A stretch of DNA of 38,111 nucleotides, taken from positions 1 to 38,111 of the forward strand of contig CANLCU010000006.1 of NCBI GenBank assembly GCA_947489135.1, in the 5' to 3' direction. The DNA comes from Micrococcales bacterium (GTDB lineage: Bacteria > Actinomycetota > Actinomycetes > Actinomycetales > Microbacteriaceae). The notes below the pieces were generated by a model. That model saw only the letters and a program-made list of their open reading frames with translations, was not told the origin of the DNA and ran no database searches. The position numbers were made by a program, and so were the translations under genes. Within the stretch, counting starts at the first letter, position 1, and each line of letters begins with the position of its first letter. Below are positions 26,274 to 35,442 of this stretch, piece after piece.

Positions 26274-29132
26274 TTACTTACTAGCCTCCAAAGCTGCAGC
26301 AATCGCAGCCTTTAGACGAGCATCAGCCTTGCCGTATGCGGTCCAGTCTCCAGCCTTCATTGCCTCATCTTTATCGATCATTGCTTGACGAGCGTTTTCT
26401 AGAGCTGTTGCTAACTGCTGTGCAGCAGTTTGACCAGGATCAACCGGTGGAATTACTCCCCCGCCAGATCCACCACTACCGGTGAAGAGAGCATTCAAAG
26501 CGGAATCTAGGTTGTCTTCGAATGCGATCTTGTCACCGAAGGCAACTAGAACTTTCTTTAGAAGTGGGAATGATGTTTCTCCAGTTGACTGAATGTAAAC
26601 CGGCTGAACATAAAGTAGTCCACCACCGATAGGAAGAGTCAATAGGTTACCGTTTAGAACCTTGGTCGAACCTTGTCTCAGAATGTTTAGAAGTTTTGAA
26701 ACTTCGCTATCTGAGTTGAAGTTGTTTTGAACCTGACCAGGACCCGGAACAATTGTCGTCCTCGGAAGAGTCAATAGTCGGAGCTTTCCGTAGTGCTCGG
26801 AAACTACTCCATCCTTATCTCCCGCATCCGAATCGGCTACGAGATATCCAGTTAGTACGTTTCGGCTTGCATCACCAGTTGATTTAGGGATGAAGGTTGA
26901 GTAAATCGAGAATGACGGACTTTCCTGGGTAGGAACCTGAAGAGTCAAGTAGTAAGGAGGCTGCAATGAACCTGTTCCCTGACCCTGATCAACTGGATCA
27001 TTAGGAGTCATCCAAGCGTCCTGCTGGGAGTAGAAAGCTCCAGCGTCAGCAACGTGATACTGACCTAGAATTCCACGCTGCATCTTGAAGAGATCTGCAG
27101 GGTATCTAATGTGTGAAAGAAGAGAGCCTGACATTTCAGAAACTGGCTTGACGGTGTTTGGGAAAACTTTCATCCAGGTCTTCAAGATTGGATCCTTGTC
27201 ATCCCATGCGTAAAGCTTCACTGAACCGTCATAGGCATCAACTGTTGCCTTCACAGAGTTTCGGATGTAGTTGATTGCTCCACGCCTAATGGGAGCAGTG
27301 GTTGAGCTGTCCGCAATTGTGCTGTCAAAGTTTTCAGCTCTTGAGTATGGGTAGTTTGCTGATGTGGTGTAACCATCAACGATCCAAACAACCTTGCCCT
27401 CAACGATTGCTGGGTAGATGTCGTTGTCCAGTGTTAGGTATGGAGCTACCTGAGCAACACGCTCTCTAGGGTTTCTGTTGTAAAGAATCTGAGAAGAATT
27501 GCTAACTGCATCAGACAAAAGAATCTGCTCGCTCTGGAACTTCAAAGAGTAAGACAAACGCTTGAAGATGTCATCTAGCTTTGGTCCACCATTACCCTTG
27601 AAAGTTGTCATAGTCTGCTGGTCTGTTGAAGCACTATCTTCACCTGCAGGATAGTCAAGTTCCTTGTCTGCTGCTCCATCTGGAGCACCAACGATTGAGT
27701 AAAGAGGTGAGCTCTCGCCAAAGTAAATGCGAGGTTCGTAATCTCCTAGAAGTCCCTTTGAAGGAATACCTGATTGTAAGAAAACTGGCTGGCCATCAAC
27801 TGAACGCTGGTTTCCATAGGCTGCAACCATTCCATAACCGTGAGTGAAAACAACTACGTTGTTGTACCAAGACTGTGAAGAACCAAGTCCAGACTGGTTC
27901 AGTTCACGAACTGCAAGAACAGTGTCTTGAACTTTTCCATTGATCTTGTAGCGATCAACATCTAGGTGATTCTGGAAACCGTAGTACTGGCGATACTGCT
28001 CTAGTTGCTTGAATGAAGAGCTAACCAGGTTTGGATCGAGAATTCTGATCTGTGCAGCTGTCTGAGCATCCTTCTTTAGAGCATCAGCTGTTGCTGTGGT
28101 CTTAGCGTCATACTCGACGGTCTGAACTTTATCCAAGCCATAGGCAGTTCTAGTTGCTTCAATGTTGCGTTGGATGTATTCAGCCTCTAGGGTTCTTTCG
28201 TTTGGAACTACCTGGAATGTCTGAACGATGCCAGGCCACACTCCACCAAGAACAACAGCAAGAACCAGCATGAGAGAAGTACCTAGGATTGCCAGTCTCC
28301 ACTTAGCGATTACAGCAACCGCTAGATAAATGATGGCAACTATAAAAGCAATTGCAGTAAGAATCTGTGCAGCAGGAATGCTTGCATTTACGTCAGAGTA
28401 AGTAGCTCCAGTGAATAGACCTGCAGAGCTTGTAAGAGTTTCATACTGTCCCAACCAAATAGTTGCCCCAAGTAGAGTCATGAAAACGGCAGCCAAAACT
28501 GAAATCTGAACACGGGCAGTCTTTGAGAAAGATGACTGCTTGCCGTTGAACTTAATTCCTCCATAAACCAAGTGGAACAATATCACTGGGATTAGAGCTA
28601 GGAAGGTGACCACCATTAGGTAAGAAACCAACAGGATATAGAAAGGAAGATCAAATAGATAGAAGCTCACGTCCATGTTGAACTGTGGGTCTGTTACACC
28701 TGATGCGGTGCTGTTCAAGAAAAGAACGACGGACTGCCAATCAGAACTCTGCGAAGAGCCAACAAAGATTCCGATAGCAATTGGAACAATCAACAGAAGT
28801 CTCTTGCGAAGACGATCTAGAACTTGTCGGTACTCAGAAAGGTCTCTTCCAAAGAAGTCATTGCCAGTTACATAAATAGGTCTCAATCTCCAGGCCAGGT
28901 AAATGTTGACCCAGACCACCACTGCAGCAAATATCGCAGTTACAGCAAACACACCTACTTGAGCCCAGATCTGTGTAGTGAACACAGATAGGAAGCCAAG
29001 CTGATCGAACCACAAAACATCTGTGTAGACACTTGATCCGCTTACTAGAGCAATTGCCAAGACTGCGATAATTCCAACTGATATTGCTAGAGGCGCTCGC
29101 TTGCGAAGCTCTGCTGCATTTATCTGACTCAT
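26274..29132 (-). CDS. UPF0182 family large membrane protein
   Basis: Seven-TM-like N-terminus then long extracytoplasmic domain (NERTLEAEYIQRNIEATRTAYGLDKV, DNDIYPAIVEGKVVWIVDGYTTSANYPYS). Confidence 0.95.
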   Translation of the reverse strand: MSQINAAELRKRAPLAISVGIIAVLAIALVSGSSVYTDVLWFDQLGFLSVFTTQIWAQVGVFAVTAIFAAVVVWVNIYLAWRLRPIYVTGNDFFGRDLSEYRQVLDRLRKRLLLIVPIAIGIFVGSSQSSDWQSVVLFLNSTASGVTDPQFNMDVSFYLFDLPFYILLVSYLMVVTFLALIPVILFHLVYGGIKFNGKQSSFSKTARVQISVLAAVFMTLLGATIWLGQYETLTSSAGLFTGATYSDVNASIPAAQILTAIAFIVAIIYLAVAVIAKWRLAILGTSLMLVLAVVLGGVWPGIVQTFQVVPNERTLEAEYIQRNIEATRTAYGLDKVQTVEYDAKTTATADALKKDAQTAAQIRILDPNLVSSSFKQLEQYRQYYGFQNHLDVDRYKINGKVQDTVLAVRELNQSGLGSSQSWYNNVVVFTHGYGMVAAYGNQRSVDGQPVFLQSGIPSKGLLGDYEPRIYFGESSPLYSIVGAPDGAADKELDYPAGEDSASTDQQTMTTFKGNGGPKLDDIFKRLSYSLKFQSEQILLSDAVSNSSQILYNRNPRERVAQVAPYLTLDNDIYPAIVEGKVVWIVDGYTTSANYPYSRAENFDSTIADSSTTAPIRRGAINYIRNSVKATVDAYDGSVKLYAWDDKDPILKTWMKVFPNTVKPVSEMSGSLLSHIRYPADLFKMQRGILGQYHVADAGAFYSQQDAWMTPNDPVDQGQGTGSLQPPYYLTLQVPTQESPSFSIYSTFIPKSTGDASRNVLTGYLVADSDAGDKDGVVSEHYGKLRLLTLPRTTIVPGPGQVQNNFNSDSEVSKLLNILRQGSTKVLNGNLLTLPIGGGLLYVQPVYIQSTGETSFPLLKKVLVAFGDKIAFEDNLDSALNALFTGSGGSGGGVIPPVDPGQTAAQQLATALENARQAMIDKDEAMKAGDWTAYGKADARLKAAIAAALEASK

Positions 29133-30232
29133 TGATTTTCCTTAGCTGTTGTTTGTTTTGTGCAAGATGGAAGCTGGTCAATGCCCTTGTTGCTGGCAAT
29201 GGCCTCTACTGCCTTTAGTGAATCCTGAATTGTTGAAACCTTTATAACTGTAAGTCCATCAGGAATGTTTCCAATGACCTGCTCACAGTTTTCGCTAGGG
29301 GCTAAGAACCACTCAACTCCAGCTCTTTGTGCCCCATACATCTTTTGCTTGACTCCACCAATTGGCCCAATCTGACCATCCGGGGTAATCGTTCCTGTTC
29401 CAGCAATTCTCTTGCCACCGGTTAGTTCACCAGGGGTCAATTTGTCATAGATTGCCAATGCGAGAATCTGTCCTGCACTTGGTCCTCCTACGTTGCCAAC
29501 TTTGACATCAATAGGGAATGGAAAAGTTGGCACAGTCTGAACGTAAATACCCATGCGCCATTTGTTTTCAATAAGTCTTGGCAGAACACTTAGTGAGAGC
29601 TGCTTACCATCTCTAATCACTTCAAGCTCAACTGGTCTTTCACCTTTAGTTTCAGCTACAAGTTTCTGCACTTGAGTTAACCCTGTTGCCTTTTCGCCTT
29701 GGATAGAAACAAGAGTGTCAGCTGCTTTCAGAATTCCTCCAGCAGGACCCTTCTTTTCAACCATGGTGACTTTAATCACTGCAGTGTATGGAATGTCCAA
29801 AAGATTGAGTGCTGCAGCTTTTGCATTGGCTTGAGAATCCAACATCATCATGTCTGCCTCATCGTTGAGTCTCTTATCGTCCCAACCCTCAGGGTAAATA
29901 TCTGTGATCTTCACGACAGTCAAAGCAGTATCCAACTGAGCAAGACCAACTTCAAGCCAAGAAGCTCCCTTAGTTGAATTACCTCTCATAGTTACGGTGA
30001 GCATATCTAAATCCCCTGAAACTGGATAGGTCTTTTGCTCAGAAATTGAAATCATCGGCTCACCGTTTATCTCTGACAGCAAGTTATAGACAGGCCCTGG
30101 TTGCTCAACCAAATAAGGGGTCGGGGCCACGACTAGAAAGAGCCCGCCACCGACAATTGCGGCTGTGGTGAGCCAACTAAATAGTCTCCCCAATGGGACT
30201 CTTCTCCGAGGTTTTACATCATTAGACATCAT
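29129..30232 (-). CDS. PDZ-containing Lon-type (S16) membrane protease
   Basis: N-terminal TM; PDZ region; catalytic GGPSAGQILALAIYD (Ser) and GGVKQKMYGAQRAG (Lys). Confidence 0.93.
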   Translation of the reverse strand: MMSNDVKPRRRVPLGRLFSWLTTAAIVGGGLFLVVAPTPYLVEQPGPVYNLLSEINGEPMISISEQKTYPVSGDLDMLTVTMRGNSTKGASWLEVGLAQLDTALTVVKITDIYPEGWDDKRLNDEADMMMLDSQANAKAAALNLLDIPYTAVIKVTMVEKKGPAGGILKAADTLVSIQGEKATGLTQVQKLVAETKGERPVELEVIRDGKQLSLSVLPRLIENKWRMGIYVQTVPTFPFPIDVKVGNVGGPSAGQILALAIYDKLTPGELTGGKRIAGTGTITPDGQIGPIGGVKQKMYGAQRAGVEWFLAPSENCEQVIGNIPDGLTVIKVSTIQDSLKAVEAIASNKGIDQLPSCTKQTTAKENQ

Positions 30233-30396
30233 TATGTTCAGCCTAAACGAGCCCTCAGACTGACAGAGCCATCTTGAGGAAGTTCTAGGCTTTCAGGCCC
30301 CACACAGCAACGCTTATGGCGAACAAGGCCCAAGTTGACTAGAGGGATATGGAGTTTTGAGAGAAATTGCGTTTAGCGTTGATACTAAGAGGACAC

Positions 30397-31725
30397 ATGA
30401 GCGAAGACAATCAAAACGGACTACCTGACCCAGAAGAACTAAGACGTATCTGGGAAGAGATGCTTAGCCAAGGGTTTGACCCAGAGGCTCTAGCTCAGGC
30501 TGCTGGTTTTGATGGCACACCTGAGTCCCTGCAAAAACTCTTCTCCAATATTCAAGGTGCTTTTCTAATTCCTAATCCCCCATCAGAAGGATCCGGAGTT
30601 AATTGGCAAGCTGCTGCTCAAGGAGCTAAAGAGCTAGCCAAGGTTGGTGCAACAGCTGTTGATGACAAAGGTCGAAAAGAACTAAATGAGGCAATTGGTA
30701 TAGCCAACCTTTGGCTCAACGAGGCAACCAGCATCTCAGAAGTAATTCTTGAACCCAAACTTCTTAGCCGAACCCTGTGGGTAGATGATGCACTTCCTCT
30801 TTTCAAACTTCTAGCAGAGCCAGTAGCTGATCGAATGAACAGATCTCTTGGCGAAGCTATCCAAGAGCAACTTCCTGAAGAACTTCAAGAATCCCTCAAA
30901 GGTGCAAGTGAGATCATGAGATCTGCTGGAGCCATGATGTTTGCTATGCAACTGGGTCAAGCTCTAGGCCAGCTATCAAAAGAAGCACTAACTGGTACCG
31001 AAATTGGCTTACCTATTTATATTGACCAGAGACCAGCTTTTGTAATTCAAAACTTGCAAGAGTTCATCGCGACCCTAGAACTTGGAAATGATAAAGACCA
31101 GGCATACATCTATCTCGTTCTTAGAGAACTTGCCCACACAAGATTATTCAAGCACTCACGTTGGCTAAGAGAAAAAGTAGTTGCCCAAATTCGTGAATAC
31201 GCAGCAGGTATTACTTTTGACACAAGTCGCATGCAAGAAATTAGCGAGGACTTTGATCCACAAAACCCAGCTGAACTGCAAGCAGCATTGGAGTCAGGAG
31301 CATTCTTGGCCTCAAGATCTCCAAGTCAACAATCCGCTCTAGACAGCATTGAAACAAACCTTGCTCTTATTGAAGGCTGGGTTGATGCGGTAACTAGTGA
31401 AGCTGCAAAGCGTTTGCCTAAGGCAGATGCAATTAGAGAAGCAGTAAGAAGAAGACGTGCAACCGGTGGTCCAGCTGAAAGCACATTCCAGACATTAGTG
31501 GGGCTTGAACTAAGACCTAAGCGCATTAGAGAAGCCACCGCTTTATGGCAACTAATCGGTGAAGCGTTAGGAAATCAAAAACGTGATGAACTATGGGATC
31601 ACCCAGACTTCCTGCCAACAGCTGAAGATATTGATAACCCAGATAAGTACGTTGCAAGAATTAAAGCTGACTTAGGTATTCCAGATGCAATGGATCAAGC
31701 ACTGAGAGATTTACTCGGCGAATAG
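30397..31725 (+). CDS. DUF2342/TIGR03624-type putative hydrolase (often named zinc-dependent metalloprotease)
   Basis: LRELAHTRLFKHSRWLREKVVAQI; divergent from the Lon-like PDZ gene. Start set at ATG 30397 behind AAGAGGA. Confidence 0.88.
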   Translation: MSEDNQNGLPDPEELRRIWEEMLSQGFDPEALAQAAGFDGTPESLQKLFSNIQGAFLIPNPPSEGSGVNWQAAAQGAKELAKVGATAVDDKGRKELNEAIGIANLWLNEATSISEVILEPKLLSRTLWVDDALPLFKLLAEPVADRMNRSLGEAIQEQLPEELQESLKGASEIMRSAGAMMFAMQLGQALGQLSKEALTGTEIGLPIYIDQRPAFVIQNLQEFIATLELGNDKDQAYIYLVLRELAHTRLFKHSRWLREKVVAQIREYAAGITFDTSRMQEISEDFDPQNPAELQAALESGAFLASRSPSQQSALDSIETNLALIEGWVDAVTSEAAKRLPKADAIREAVRRRRATGGPAESTFQTLVGLELRPKRIREATALWQLIGEALGNQKRDELWDHPDFLPTAEDIDNPDKYVARIKADLGIPDAMDQALRDLLGE

Positions 31726-31774: not shown

Positions 31775-32839
31775 GTGTTTCATCGAATCAACAAAGCCCA
31801 GCCTTCAGTTTGGCGTGACCCAAACACAATTCAGATTGGCTTAGGCAACACAAGTGTCTCTATCTCAGAGTTATCACTTGCTCAACAACAGATAATTGCA
31901 GCCCTCTATAGCGGAGTGGTTGATGGTCAACAAGACGTTCTAGATGAAACCTTCAAGGCTGAGTCAGGAACCACTCAATCGCTCATTGAAAAACTCTCCC
32001 CTGTTATAGAAAGTGAAGGCTCAACAAGTAACAGCTTTGGGGCCTGGCAAGAGATAGCCTTTGCAGAACTAGCTAGAGCTGCTTTGGACTATGAGGTAAA
32101 TCCTGAAATGGTTTTAGCTGAAAGATGGCAAAGAGTTGTCCATATTGATCAATTAGATAAAAGTGGCTCACTATTAGCTAAAGGGCTACTGGCCAGCGGA
32201 GTTGGCAAAGTAGTAACCCATGACGATGGCAAGGTTCTAAGAACAGATCTAGGTGAACTAGGTTTCAAATCTGAAGACTTGGGAAAATCACGTCTTGAAA
32301 CTTTGAAACAGGATTTAGTGAAGCTCTCACTTGTTAAAGACGTCAGTGAAAGATTTATTGACCTGAACTACAAACCCAGCAAAGACTTAGTAATTTCCTT
32401 TGCCATCACAGTCGGTCACCTGGCAACAAGACCCGTCTCCTACCTGCGTTGGCTAAACAGAGATGTTCCTCACCTCAACATAAATTTTGATTTGTATGAA
32501 GCACAAATTAGTCCGATTGTATTTCCTGGAGTAACTCCATGCCTCAACTGTCTTACTGAATCTAACGTTGATGAAGACCCTGCTTGGCCTGCACTTGCTT
32601 CCCAACTGATTGATCTACCCAGAACGAGAGATGACAGTTCAGCCCTACTTGCAACAACAGGATTGGCTTTGAGAGTGATTCTTCGACAGCTTGATCAATC
32701 GGCTGGATTTTCTTTGTCTAAAGATGAAGATAACAAGTTTCAAGATGGCTATCTCATTGATTATGCAACCGGTGATGTTTCTAGAACTAAATACAGTTTT
32801 CATAAACTCTGCAACTGCAGAATCTTAGATCAGGTCTAG
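31775..32839 (+). CDS. ThiF/E1-like, TOMM cyclodehydratase-type protein (orphan)
   Basis: GTG start; N-terminal winged-helix-like VWRDPNTIQIGLG; PGVTPCLNCLTESNVDEDPAWPALASQL and C-terminal CNC, a CxxC/CxC zinc pattern. Confidence 0.75.
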   Translation: MFHRINKAQPSVWRDPNTIQIGLGNTSVSISELSLAQQQIIAALYSGVVDGQQDVLDETFKAESGTTQSLIEKLSPVIESEGSTSNSFGAWQEIAFAELARAALDYEVNPEMVLAERWQRVVHIDQLDKSGSLLAKGLLASGVGKVVTHDDGKVLRTDLGELGFKSEDLGKSRLETLKQDLVKLSLVKDVSERFIDLNYKPSKDLVISFAITVGHLATRPVSYLRWLNRDVPHLNINFDLYEAQISPIVFPGVTPCLNCLTESNVDEDPAWPALASQLIDLPRTRDDSSALLATTGLALRVILRQLDQSAGFSLSKDEDNKFQDGYLIDYATGDVSRTKYSFHKLCNCRILDQV

Positions 32840-34495
32840 GTATCTGCTTCTAGTCCGCTGCCTGTCATCAGCACCGTCTTTGTTAGCCCAAGTAATGAAA
32901 AGCAAATCCTTGGCTCGGGTAACCCCAACATAGAAAAGACGTTGCTCTTCTGAAATCTGTAGTTCAGTCTTGGCATAACTTATTGGCATGTAACCTTCAA
33001 CCGCACCAATGATAAATACCGCTTTGTATTCAAGACCCTTAGCTGCGTGAATGGTACTCAAGGTAATTGATTCTCTAGTTGGTTCATGTTGAGATCTTTG
33101 GCGTTCTTCTAATTCATTAGCGAAGGTTTGAATTGTTGCCTCTTGACCAAGCTCATCAGCAATCTGAACCAAAGAGTTAAGCGCTTCCCATTCCTCCAAT
33201 GCTCTTCCTGAGACATTAGGTGCGATGCTCTGCCAACCAAGGCTTCTAGCTATTGCTGAAACAGTTTCGTAGAGGGCTTTACCTGTTGGGTTAGCAGCTT
33301 CTGCTCTAACCATTCGAACAGCAGACATAATCTCTGGTCTACTGAAATAGCGTTGGCCTCCCCTGACCTGATACTCGACACCCGCTCTACTCAAAGCATT
33401 TTCAATATGTTCAGATTGAGCATTGATTCGATATAGAACTGCTATCTGGCTTGCCTTCATTCCAGAAGAAAGCAGATCCTTGATTTTGTTAGCAACAAAA
33501 TCACATTCCTTCTCTCTATCTTGGAACTCTAGAACCTGCGGTTCTATTCCTCTTGGTCTAATTGCTTCTAGAGGTTCAAACTTTTGATTTCCTCTCACCC
33601 TGTTTGCTACCCCAATGATTTCTGGAGTGGAACGGTAGTTCTTGGTTAGCTCAATTACATTCGCCCCTGGATACCTTGAGTCAAAGTTCTCTAGGAATGA
33701 TGCATTAGCTCCGCTGAAGGAATAGATAGTTTGGTTAGGGTCACCAACAACACATAGGTCGCTTCTATCGCCTAGCCAGGTATCTAGAAGTTCCTGCTGC
33801 AACTTAGAAATATCTTGATACTCATCAACCGTGAAGAAGCGATACTGCTGGTGAACATGTGCGAGTGCTCTAGGTTCAGATTTCAGCATGCCCGTGCACA
33901 GAAGTAAGACATCTTCCCAGTCGATCTGCTTGGCTTTTACTTTCGCATCTTCATAAGCAACCTGAATCTCATAAGAGCGAATGGGGGCAAGCCCTTGAAT
34001 TACAGGCCTAGTTGAAATGACATCTAGGTACTCCTCGAGGCTAAGCATTGAATACTTTCGCCATTCAATCTCAGATGCGATATCTCTAATTGTGTTTGCA
34101 TCTAAACGAATCTTTAGAGCTTCGCCTGCTTTGCCAATGGCTTTTGACTTGGAGTCAAGAACCCTAGGAGCTTCAATACCGAAGAAGTCTCGCCAAAAGT
34201 ATTCAAGTTGAGACAAGGCAGCAGCGTGAAATGTTTTGGCATTTACTGAGTGAACACCTAAACCTCGAAGTCTTGCTCTGAGTTCACCTGCTGCTCGGTT
34301 CGTATAAGTCAGAGCCATTACGCGATTCTCAGAGAAATCTCCACGCAAAATTCCATAGGCAATTCGATGTGTGATTGTTCTGGTCTTTCCAGTTCCCGCT
34401 CCAGCCAGAATCACGGTTGGTCCTATGAGTGATTGAGCGGCTTCACGTTGCTCTTCATCAAGAGCATTGAGGATGTCTTCTGCTTCGTACTGCAT
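32825..34495 (-). CDS. UvrD/Rep family ATP-dependent DNA helicase (UvrD2-like, short form)
   Basis: ILAGAGTGKTRTITHRIA, MALTYTNRAAGELRARL, FFTVDEYQDIS, GDPNQTIYSFSGA, LSTIHAAKGLEYKAVF, YVGVTRAKDLL. Confidence 0.95.
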   Translation of the reverse strand: MQYEAEDILNALDEEQREAAQSLIGPTVILAGAGTGKTRTITHRIAYGILRGDFSENRVMALTYTNRAAGELRARLRGLGVHSVNAKTFHAAALSQLEYFWRDFFGIEAPRVLDSKSKAIGKAGEALKIRLDANTIRDIASEIEWRKYSMLSLEEYLDVISTRPVIQGLAPIRSYEIQVAYEDAKVKAKQIDWEDVLLLCTGMLKSEPRALAHVHQQYRFFTVDEYQDISKLQQELLDTWLGDRSDLCVVGDPNQTIYSFSGANASFLENFDSRYPGANVIELTKNYRSTPEIIGVANRVRGNQKFEPLEAIRPRGIEPQVLEFQDREKECDFVANKIKDLLSSGMKASQIAVLYRINAQSEHIENALSRAGVEYQVRGGQRYFSRPEIMSAVRMVRAEAANPTGKALYETVSAIARSLGWQSIAPNVSGRALEEWEALNSLVQIADELGQEATIQTFANELEERQRSQHEPTRESITLSTIHAAKGLEYKAVFIIGAVEGYMPISYAKTELQISEEQRLFYVGVTRAKDLLFITWANKDGADDRQRTRSRYLDLI

Positions 34496-34497
34496 AG

Positions 34498-35442
34498 CTA
34501 CCTGCTGAGTTCTGTAGCTGAAATGATTTCTTCACCCATCCAGTGTTCAATGAGTGATCGCGCAATTGAGATCTTTGAAGGTAGCAAGATGCTTGCTGCT
34601 TCCGCTTTTAGTTCTTCTCTTGAGAACCAGCGAAGCTTAGCGATTTCAATTCCATCAGGTCTGATGCTTTCAGGACCATTACTTGGATCTAGTTTTGCTG
34701 TGAAGCCAAGCATCAGTGAATAAGGGTAAGGCCAAGATTGGCTTGCAAGGTAAACAGGGTTAGTAACAAGTAACCCTGACTCTTCTAACATCTCTCTAAC
34801 TACTGCTGCTTCTAAAGATTCCGCCGCTTCAACAAAGCCTGCCAAAATAGACCAGCGGTTTTGCTCCCAACTTCCTTGGGTGCCAAGAAGAATGCGGTCT
34901 TGATCATCTGTGATGCAGACAATCACAGCTGCATCTGTTCTAGGAAATAGTTCTCTATCTTCAGAAACACAAAGCCTTGACCAACCACCCTGTTGCATAA
35001 CTGTTATTGCTCCACATGCAGGACAGTGCTGATGGGTTTCATGCCAGTTATGAATAGCTAGGGCTTGAGTAAACAGTGCTGCATCTCTTGGGTGTAATCC
35101 AGCACCACTTCTTCTAAGTTCATGCCACTTAGATTCGTCAGGCTCTATAGCTTTGGCAGCGTTATCGCTTAGAACTGAAAGTACAATTGCTGTGCCAATC
35201 TTTTGATCCCCTAGTTCAACAGTTGTTCTACCTAGGTAAACCCTGTATTTGCCAGCGGTAGCTTGCTCAGTTGTAAGAAGTCTTAGATGACCATCACGAA
35301 TCAGGGTCTTACCTTTATAAAGAACAATGATTCGGGTCTCTGGTTCAAGCCACAGTTTGTCAAAGAGCTCAGCATCATCCCGTGCTTCGGCATCGCGGTT
35401 AAGTACCGCTTGGGCCATTGGCAAAACTAAAGGGATGCTCAT
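34498..35442 (-). CDS. nudC: NADH pyrophosphatase / NAD-cap hydrolase (Nudix)
   Basis: Nudix box GFVEAAESLEAAVVREMLEESGL; SQSWPYPYSLMLGF (NudC SQPWPFPxS-type signature). Confidence 0.94.
   Translation of the reverse strand: MSIPLVLPMAQAVLNRDAEARDDAELFDKLWLEPETRIIVLYKGKTLIRDGHLRLLTTEQATAGKYRVYLGRTTVELGDQKIGTAIVLSVLSDNAAKAIEPDESKWHELRRSGAGLHPRDAALFTQALAIHNWHETHQHCPACGAITVMQQGGWSRLCVSEDRELFPRTDAAVIVCITDDQDRILLGTQGSWEQNRWSILAGFVEAAESLEAAVVREMLEESGLLVTNPVYLASQSWPYPYSLMLGFTAKLDPSNGPESIRPDGIEIAKLRWFSREELKAEAASILLPSKISIARSLIEHWMGEEIISATELSR

Follow-up and report, generated by a model that had tools for sequence, protein, structure and literature searches.

The adenylating enzyme of microcin C7, MccB, carries an E1 site made up of a GxGxxG loop, the Arg of an NLTRQ motif, the Lys of GKNK and the Asp of SADH, with catalytic roles that follow established E1 biochemistry. 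RREs, in turn, which hold a leader peptide in the beta3/alpha3 groove, serve as markers in mining for RiPP antibiotics. RREs such as TclI have been shown to bind a linear segment so that it forms a fourth strand (PMC10634744). F proteins were tied to heterocycloanthracin and thiopeptide clusters in a survey of TOMM clusters, with only two exceptions (PMC4603692).

An RRE/pseudo-E1 gene, as its product is best predicted, lies in the window, by which is meant the whole stretch of 38,111 nt that was analysed. The gene and its neighbours are arranged as follows.

26274..29132, minus strand: UPF0182 membrane protein (Pfam, E 4e-275; 30 of 49 ortholog neighbourhoods, within the fetched flanks)
29129..30232, minus strand: Lon-type PDZ protease, divergent (Pfam Lon_C and PDZ_2; 38 of 49 neighbourhoods)
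30367..31725, plus strand: DUF2342/Zincin_2 protein, HExxH replaced by RELAH, 49 bp upstream, a probable operon partner (Pfam, E 3e-105)
31775..32839, plus strand: predicted RRE/pseudo-E1 gene, GTG start, 354 aa, intact open reading frame (orthologs in relatives at 72-53% identity)
32825..34495, minus strand: UvrD2-like helicase, convergent, 3' ends overlapping by 15 bp (Pfam; 42 of 49, always on the opposite strand)
34498..35442, minus strand: NudC-type NAD diphosphatase (NCBIfam NAD(+) diphosphatase above cut-off; 31 of 49)

The remaining genes of the window have housekeeping roles and encode ATP synthase, Rho, RF-1, homoserine and threonine enzymes, ArgS and RNase PH, as well as an Asp/Glu racemase, malic enzyme and a trypsin/PDZ protease. 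No RiPP genes were found among them, in agreement with the initial annotation, which had seen no YcaO, precursor peptide or transporter. PHROGs and PADLOC gave no match at the locus, so a phage or defence origin is unsupported and was rejected. A precursor peptide was rejected as well, as the gap to DUF2342 is only 49 bp and the short frames there overlap larger genes. Promoter and terminator scans at the locus scored near chance.

Neighbourhoods were surveyed for 49 orthologs, several absences among them being due to contig ends or limited flanks. The gene order UPF0182, Lon-PDZ, DUF2342, pseudo-E1 gene, UvrD2, NudC is fixed. DUF2342, Lon-PDZ and UPF0182, which the initial annotation had already pointed out as neighbours, recur in 43, 38 and 30 of the 49, and DUF2342 lies on the same strand as the pseudo-E1 gene in 42. 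The suggestion that they form an envelope or proteolysis module holds as far as a conserved neighbourhood is concerned. The layout lends no support to a single machine: UPF0182 and Lon-PDZ are divergent, UvrD2 is convergent, and the only neighbour on the same strand, DUF2342, is HExxH-negative. With the family defined as an RRE plus CxxC...DPxWP...HxxCxC beside DUF2342 and UvrD2, the window protein falls within it.

Some lineages carry additional genes at the locus. For example, a YgjP-like metallopeptidase and a TerD/AIM24 protein are found between the pseudo-E1 gene and DUF2342 in a Streptomyces-like locus (L075:9588-12035). In a mycobacterial-type locus, L083, the order is UPF0182, Lon-PDZ, DUF2342, acyltransferase, pseudo-E1 gene, ABC1 kinase, WhiB, UvrD2, NudC; the ABC1 kinase and WhiB genes (L083:7668-9488) are thus placed between the pseudo-E1 gene and UvrD2, as in the mycobacterial WhiB7 region. 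This order resembles that of Mycobacterium tuberculosis Rv3193c to Rv3199c, where by position the pseudo-E1 gene would probably be Rv3196. Rv3197 is a macrolide-binding protein (PMC6208485, PMC8696161) and Rv3195 a putative hydrolase (PMC12101465). Two similar names should be kept apart from this gene: Rv3196A, named in two papers, is a separate small gene and not the ortholog, and a link to the 'moeB' gene SCO5178 of S. coelicolor (PMC4340878) was rejected, SCO5178 being more likely a true MoeB/MoeZ.

Almost every sampled genome of the class Actinomycetes carries the pseudo-E1 gene, a point that the earlier reading of this DNA had missed. Of 59 relatives, 51 encode the protein, and close copies occur in Rhodoluna and Micrococcales MAGs, which suggests that the DNA comes from a freshwater organism of Microbacteriaceae type. 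A family profile matched 291 of 297 Actinomycetes genomes, with full-length, high-scoring matches across many families of the class, although the true class figure is somewhat below this because some of the weak matches are other E1 proteins. At a strict threshold, no match was obtained in about 180 genomes of the same phylum outside the class. Within the window's own genome (G000, 79% complete), a ThiF-family search returned the pseudo-E1 gene as the only E1-like gene besides a weak 37-position match, and no MoeB or ThiF elsewhere.

The predicted protein can be divided into the following parts.

31775..32008, plus strand: N-terminal RRE-like domain, residues 1-78, predicted beta-beta-beta-alpha-alpha-alpha (AF2 and Foldseek)
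32009..32122, plus strand: helical linker, residues 79-116, with the lowest conservation in the protein
32123..32374, plus strand: degenerate E1 Rossmann half, residues 117-200 (Pfam ThiF over 131-265; MccB alignment over 127-260)
32147..32167, plus strand: DQLDKSG replacing the E1 GxGxxG loop, residues 125-131 (alignment to MccB and to GxGRxG-keeping orthologs)
32540..32551, plus strand: CLNC, C256 and C259, first half of a predicted zinc tetrathiolate (both 48/48)
32576..32590, plus strand: DPAWP signature, D268, W271 and P272 (D 42/48, W 47/48, P 42/48)
32801..32818, plus strand: H-x-x-C-x-C, H343, C346 and C348, second half of the predicted zinc site (H 45/48, C 48/48, C 46/48)

Membership of the E1/ThiF superfamily is indicated by both sequence and fold. 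Pfam ThiF matches the window protein with an E-value of 4e-6, 1.7 bits under the curated cut-off, while MccB in the PDB is matched at 1e-7 with the single sequence and at 4e-14 to 8e-15 with profiles of relatives. Profile searching also matched PaaA, from residue 4 onward (6e-13). Foldseek comparison of a full-length AF2 model with the PDB returned MccB as hits 1-24 over the whole chain (best E 3.6e-16, probability 1.00), followed by PaaA, UBA5 and McbB. This model was built from eight sequences, and its pLDDT of 70.9 is moderate and its domain placement poor (RMSD of about 12 A to MccB). The initial description of a ThiF/TOMM-cyclodehydratase-like orphan, and its expectation that comparison with RRE and ThiF-like structures would give a related fold, are therefore borne out by Pfam, PDB and AF2/Foldseek matches to an RRE and an MccB-like fold.

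As the relative placement of the domains in the full model is uncertain, residues 1-82 were folded alone. The resulting AF2 model (pLDDT 89) has its elements in RRE order (E11-15 E18-21 E28-30 H35-46 H53-59 H66-73), and contains the winged-helix-like N-terminal segment noticed from the sequence at first. All of its top ten Foldseek hits are chains of McbB, ThcOx, MccB, TigE and LynD, which are RRE-bearing RiPP enzymes, and MadB, TruD and lasso peptide protein B1, likewise RRE-bearing RiPP proteins, appear lower in the list. The best nine have weak E-values (0.02 to 0.8), as expected for a domain of only 82 residues, while the probabilities for the ten are 0.47-1.0. An RRE-like N-terminal domain is thus a well-supported prediction, for which the evidence is the consistency of the list and not the E-values, and the window protein as a whole is very likely an RRE/pseudo-E1 protein as modelled. 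RREs and DNA-binding winged helices do share a topology (PMC7470986), and profile searching gave one weak match to a transcriptional regulator in the PDB (2fbh, E 0.003), so that the protein might instead be a regulator whose winged helix binds DNA and is fused to a dead E1 domain. However, the isolated domain places RRE-bearing RiPP enzymes first, with no DNA-binding winged helix among its top hits, which makes this reading highly unlikely.

Conservation was scored over 48 family members, 33 of them outside the window's own branch. The segment where a nucleotide-binding loop would be expected, VVHIDQLDKSGSLLAKGLLASGVGKVV (121-147), is present as the initial annotation gave it, and so are PCLNC (C256, C259), DPAWPALASQL (268-278) and LCNC (C346, C348). 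Where MccB has its catalytic Arg, Lys and Asp, the window protein reads TDLGE, GKSR and ITVGHLA. With the GxGxxG loop and all three of these residues missing, adenylation has very probably been lost in the window protein. The early proposal of a degraded loop and lost adenylation is accordingly sound for this protein and, as regards the loop, for its near relatives, but does not extend to the family: GxGxxG is found in 20 of the 48 members, and all 20 come from the set of 33 that lies outside the window's branch. The catalytic Arg, Lys and Asp are conserved nowhere in the 48-member family. Loss of GxGxxG is therefore special to the window's lineage, whereas loss of the other E1 catalytic residues is family-wide.

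Judged by the 20 of 33 distant orthologs that keep the loop, nucleotide binding may survive among them. It is therefore conceivable that most orthologs are working E1 relatives whose GxGRxG loop binds ATP or another dinucleotide and which carry out an E1-like or other reaction, and that only the Rhodoluna-type branch that includes the window has decayed. The conserved Arg after GxG and D150 (40/48 in the ortholog alignment) suggest that the loop is under selection. However, no Arg is found where MccB has that of NLTRQ, Arg mostly takes the place of the Lys, and the residue at the Asp position is variable. Furthermore, L083, the likely mycobacterial ortholog, has had most of its Rossmann half deleted while the RRE and Cys parts were retained. 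An active nucleotide-binding enzyme is thus an unlikely account of the family.

The residues that are conserved lie elsewhere. In the ortholog alignment, the RRE residues Q20 and G22 are each present in 47 of 48 members, and the four Cys in 48, 48, 48 and 46 of 48, which places the CxxC...CxC pattern first noticed in the sequence beyond chance. Since the RRE and the four Cys are conserved and the catalytic residues are not, the family appears to be held by its RRE and zinc-like cluster rather than by catalysis. The cluster is predicted to bind zinc. That they outrank every catalytic residue in conservation, together with the WhiB gene among the L083 neighbours, could also point to a zinc or thiol-redox sensor, with the tetra-Cys cluster serving as its switch and the winged helix passing a stress signal on to the neighbours. 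Structural four-Cys zinc sites are, however, ordinary in E1, MoeB and TOMM E1 folds, and no regulatory data on the pseudo-E1 protein were found; we regard a sensor as quite improbable.

The only same-strand neighbour, DUF2342, shows a comparable loss. DUF2342 is a predicted zincin, with HExxH in 43% of members (PMC3650047), and its solved relative 3cmn reads HEMTH. Among the 46 DUF2342 copies adjoining the pseudo-E1 gene (L001-L089), HExxH occurs in none: all 46 start with RE, 36 have RExxH, and in ten the final His is gone as well. On these residues, annotation of DUF2342 in Actinomycetes as a zinc-dependent metalloprotease is doubtful. That both same-strand genes encode enzyme folds without their catalytic signatures is the strongest hint that the pair binds rather than catalyses, and we infer, tentatively, that DUF2342 may be the partner of the pseudo-E1 protein. 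Literature describing DUF2342 with an E1-like partner was not found in a search that covered few subscription journals. In several non-Micrococcales lineages (L072, L073, L075, L076, L081, L083, L088), DUF2342 has an N-terminal PFGF motif (MSDTPFGFG, MADLPFGFS) and a low-complexity linker, possibly a binding tail. An association of this motif with the RRE was set aside as evidence, as the motif, though seen in several lineages, is absent from the window's branch.

Several observations bear on a possible role in RiPP biosynthesis. No YcaO is found in the window genome (79% complete) or in 35 congeners. YcaO is encoded in 90 of 297 Actinomycetes genomes, and on the 15 class contigs that list both genes the nearest copy is 162 kb away. 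With no YcaO nearby, the gene's context is not that of a TOMM F protein; the reading as a RiPP gene cluster was rejected, and the initial view of an orphan that is not a RiPP enzyme stands. Nevertheless, most orthologs have TIGR03882 (TOMM leader peptide-binding) as their best NCBIfam match, and of ten that were scanned singly one passes the cut-off (L071:7892-8992, 37.1 bits), so automated annotation may name some orthologs TOMM leader-binding proteins. These matches and the RRE-like fold would also suit a true TOMM/RiPP F protein that acts in trans, its YcaO and precursor being encoded far away. However, the window protein scores 14.1 bits against TIGR03882, far below the curated cut-off of 36.9, and YcaO is never near where distance was measurable, leaving this explanation nearly refuted.

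The gene is not indispensable. Two of 35 congeners (G003 and G023; L086 and L087) have cleanly lost the pseudo-E1 gene only, retaining UPF0182, Lon-PDZ, DUF2342, UvrD2 and NudC in order, with the ends of DUF2342 and UvrD2 abutting. DUF2342 is therefore not strictly dependent on the pseudo-E1 gene. The latter also outpaces DUF2342 in evolutionary rate, with a dN to nearest relatives of about 0.22 compared to 0.07-0.08, roughly three times as high; dN/dS was discarded, as dS is saturated. Both the clean losses and the rate would fit a decaying relic with little function left in genome-reduced freshwater Microbacteriaceae. However, frames are intact in nearly all relatives, motifs are invariant, the gene is near-universal in the class, and protein identity is still 72% despite saturated dS. 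Taken together, these make a relic improbable.

The explanation we favour, to which we give an even chance, is that of a catalytically dead MccB/McbB-like scaffold that clamps a peptide within a conserved non-RiPP module. The N-terminal RRE-like winged helix would bind a linear peptide or the disordered tail of a protein, taking it up as an extra beta strand, by analogy with described RREs. The C-terminal pseudo-E1 domain, stabilised by zinc at CxxC...CxC, would present this segment to a partner or dock onto one, most likely the co-directional DUF2342, whose zincin fold also lacks HExxH. The scaffold would belong to a near-universal Actinomycetes housekeeping module outside RiPP pathways. For the peptide-binding role itself, the case for and against appears balanced. 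A broader proposal is that the scaffold and the pseudo-zincin (DUF2342 with RExxH) jointly recognise a cellular peptide or protein tail in nearly all Actinomycetes, as a non-RiPP housekeeping relative, perhaps ancestor, of the RiPP recognition machinery, represented in M. tuberculosis by Rv3195-Rv3196; this is speculative and has only a modest chance of being correct in full.

The RRE, the E1 fold and the zincin are already known as parts. A literature search that was thin on subscription journals turned up no description of their class-wide pairing outside RiPP pathways, as a pseudo-E1 gene beside a degenerate zincin. A near-universal non-RiPP gene of this kind would lead to false RiPP calls throughout the class. 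If the protein does bind peptides, there is a housekeeping role for the RRE/E1 clamp, and a conserved gene pair apparently carried by mycobacteria gains a testable function.

Among known systems, MccB (PDB 3h5n, 3h9j, 6om4) is the top match in both sequence and structure, and shares the combination of an RRE-like N-terminal domain and an E1 domain. However, MccB is active, with intact GCGGIG, NLTRQ and catalytic Lys and Asp, and is encoded in a RiPP cluster, whereas the window protein has lost these residues and is encoded at a housekeeping locus. McbB, the scaffold of microcin B17 synthetase (PDB 6gos/6gri) and the best match of the N-terminal domain, is E1-like and catalytically silent, and its RRE binds the leader; it is part of a RiPP synthetase together with McbC and McbD, while the window genome has no YcaO (McbD-type) gene. 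TOMM F proteins and ocin-ThiF-like proteins (TIGR03882, cyclo_dehyd_2, which covers residues 232-341) also pair an RRE with an inactive E1-like fold, but serve YcaO cyclodehydratases, whereas the genome here lacks YcaO and the score falls below cut-off. MoeB, ThiF and UBA5 share the E1 Rossmann fold; in contrast to these enzymes, the window protein lacks the catalytic residues and has an RRE-like domain. Finally, Rv3196 of M. tuberculosis, the probable counterpart by position, is comparable through the same gene order in L083, and differs in the Rossmann half, which is shorter in the mycobacterial-type copy.
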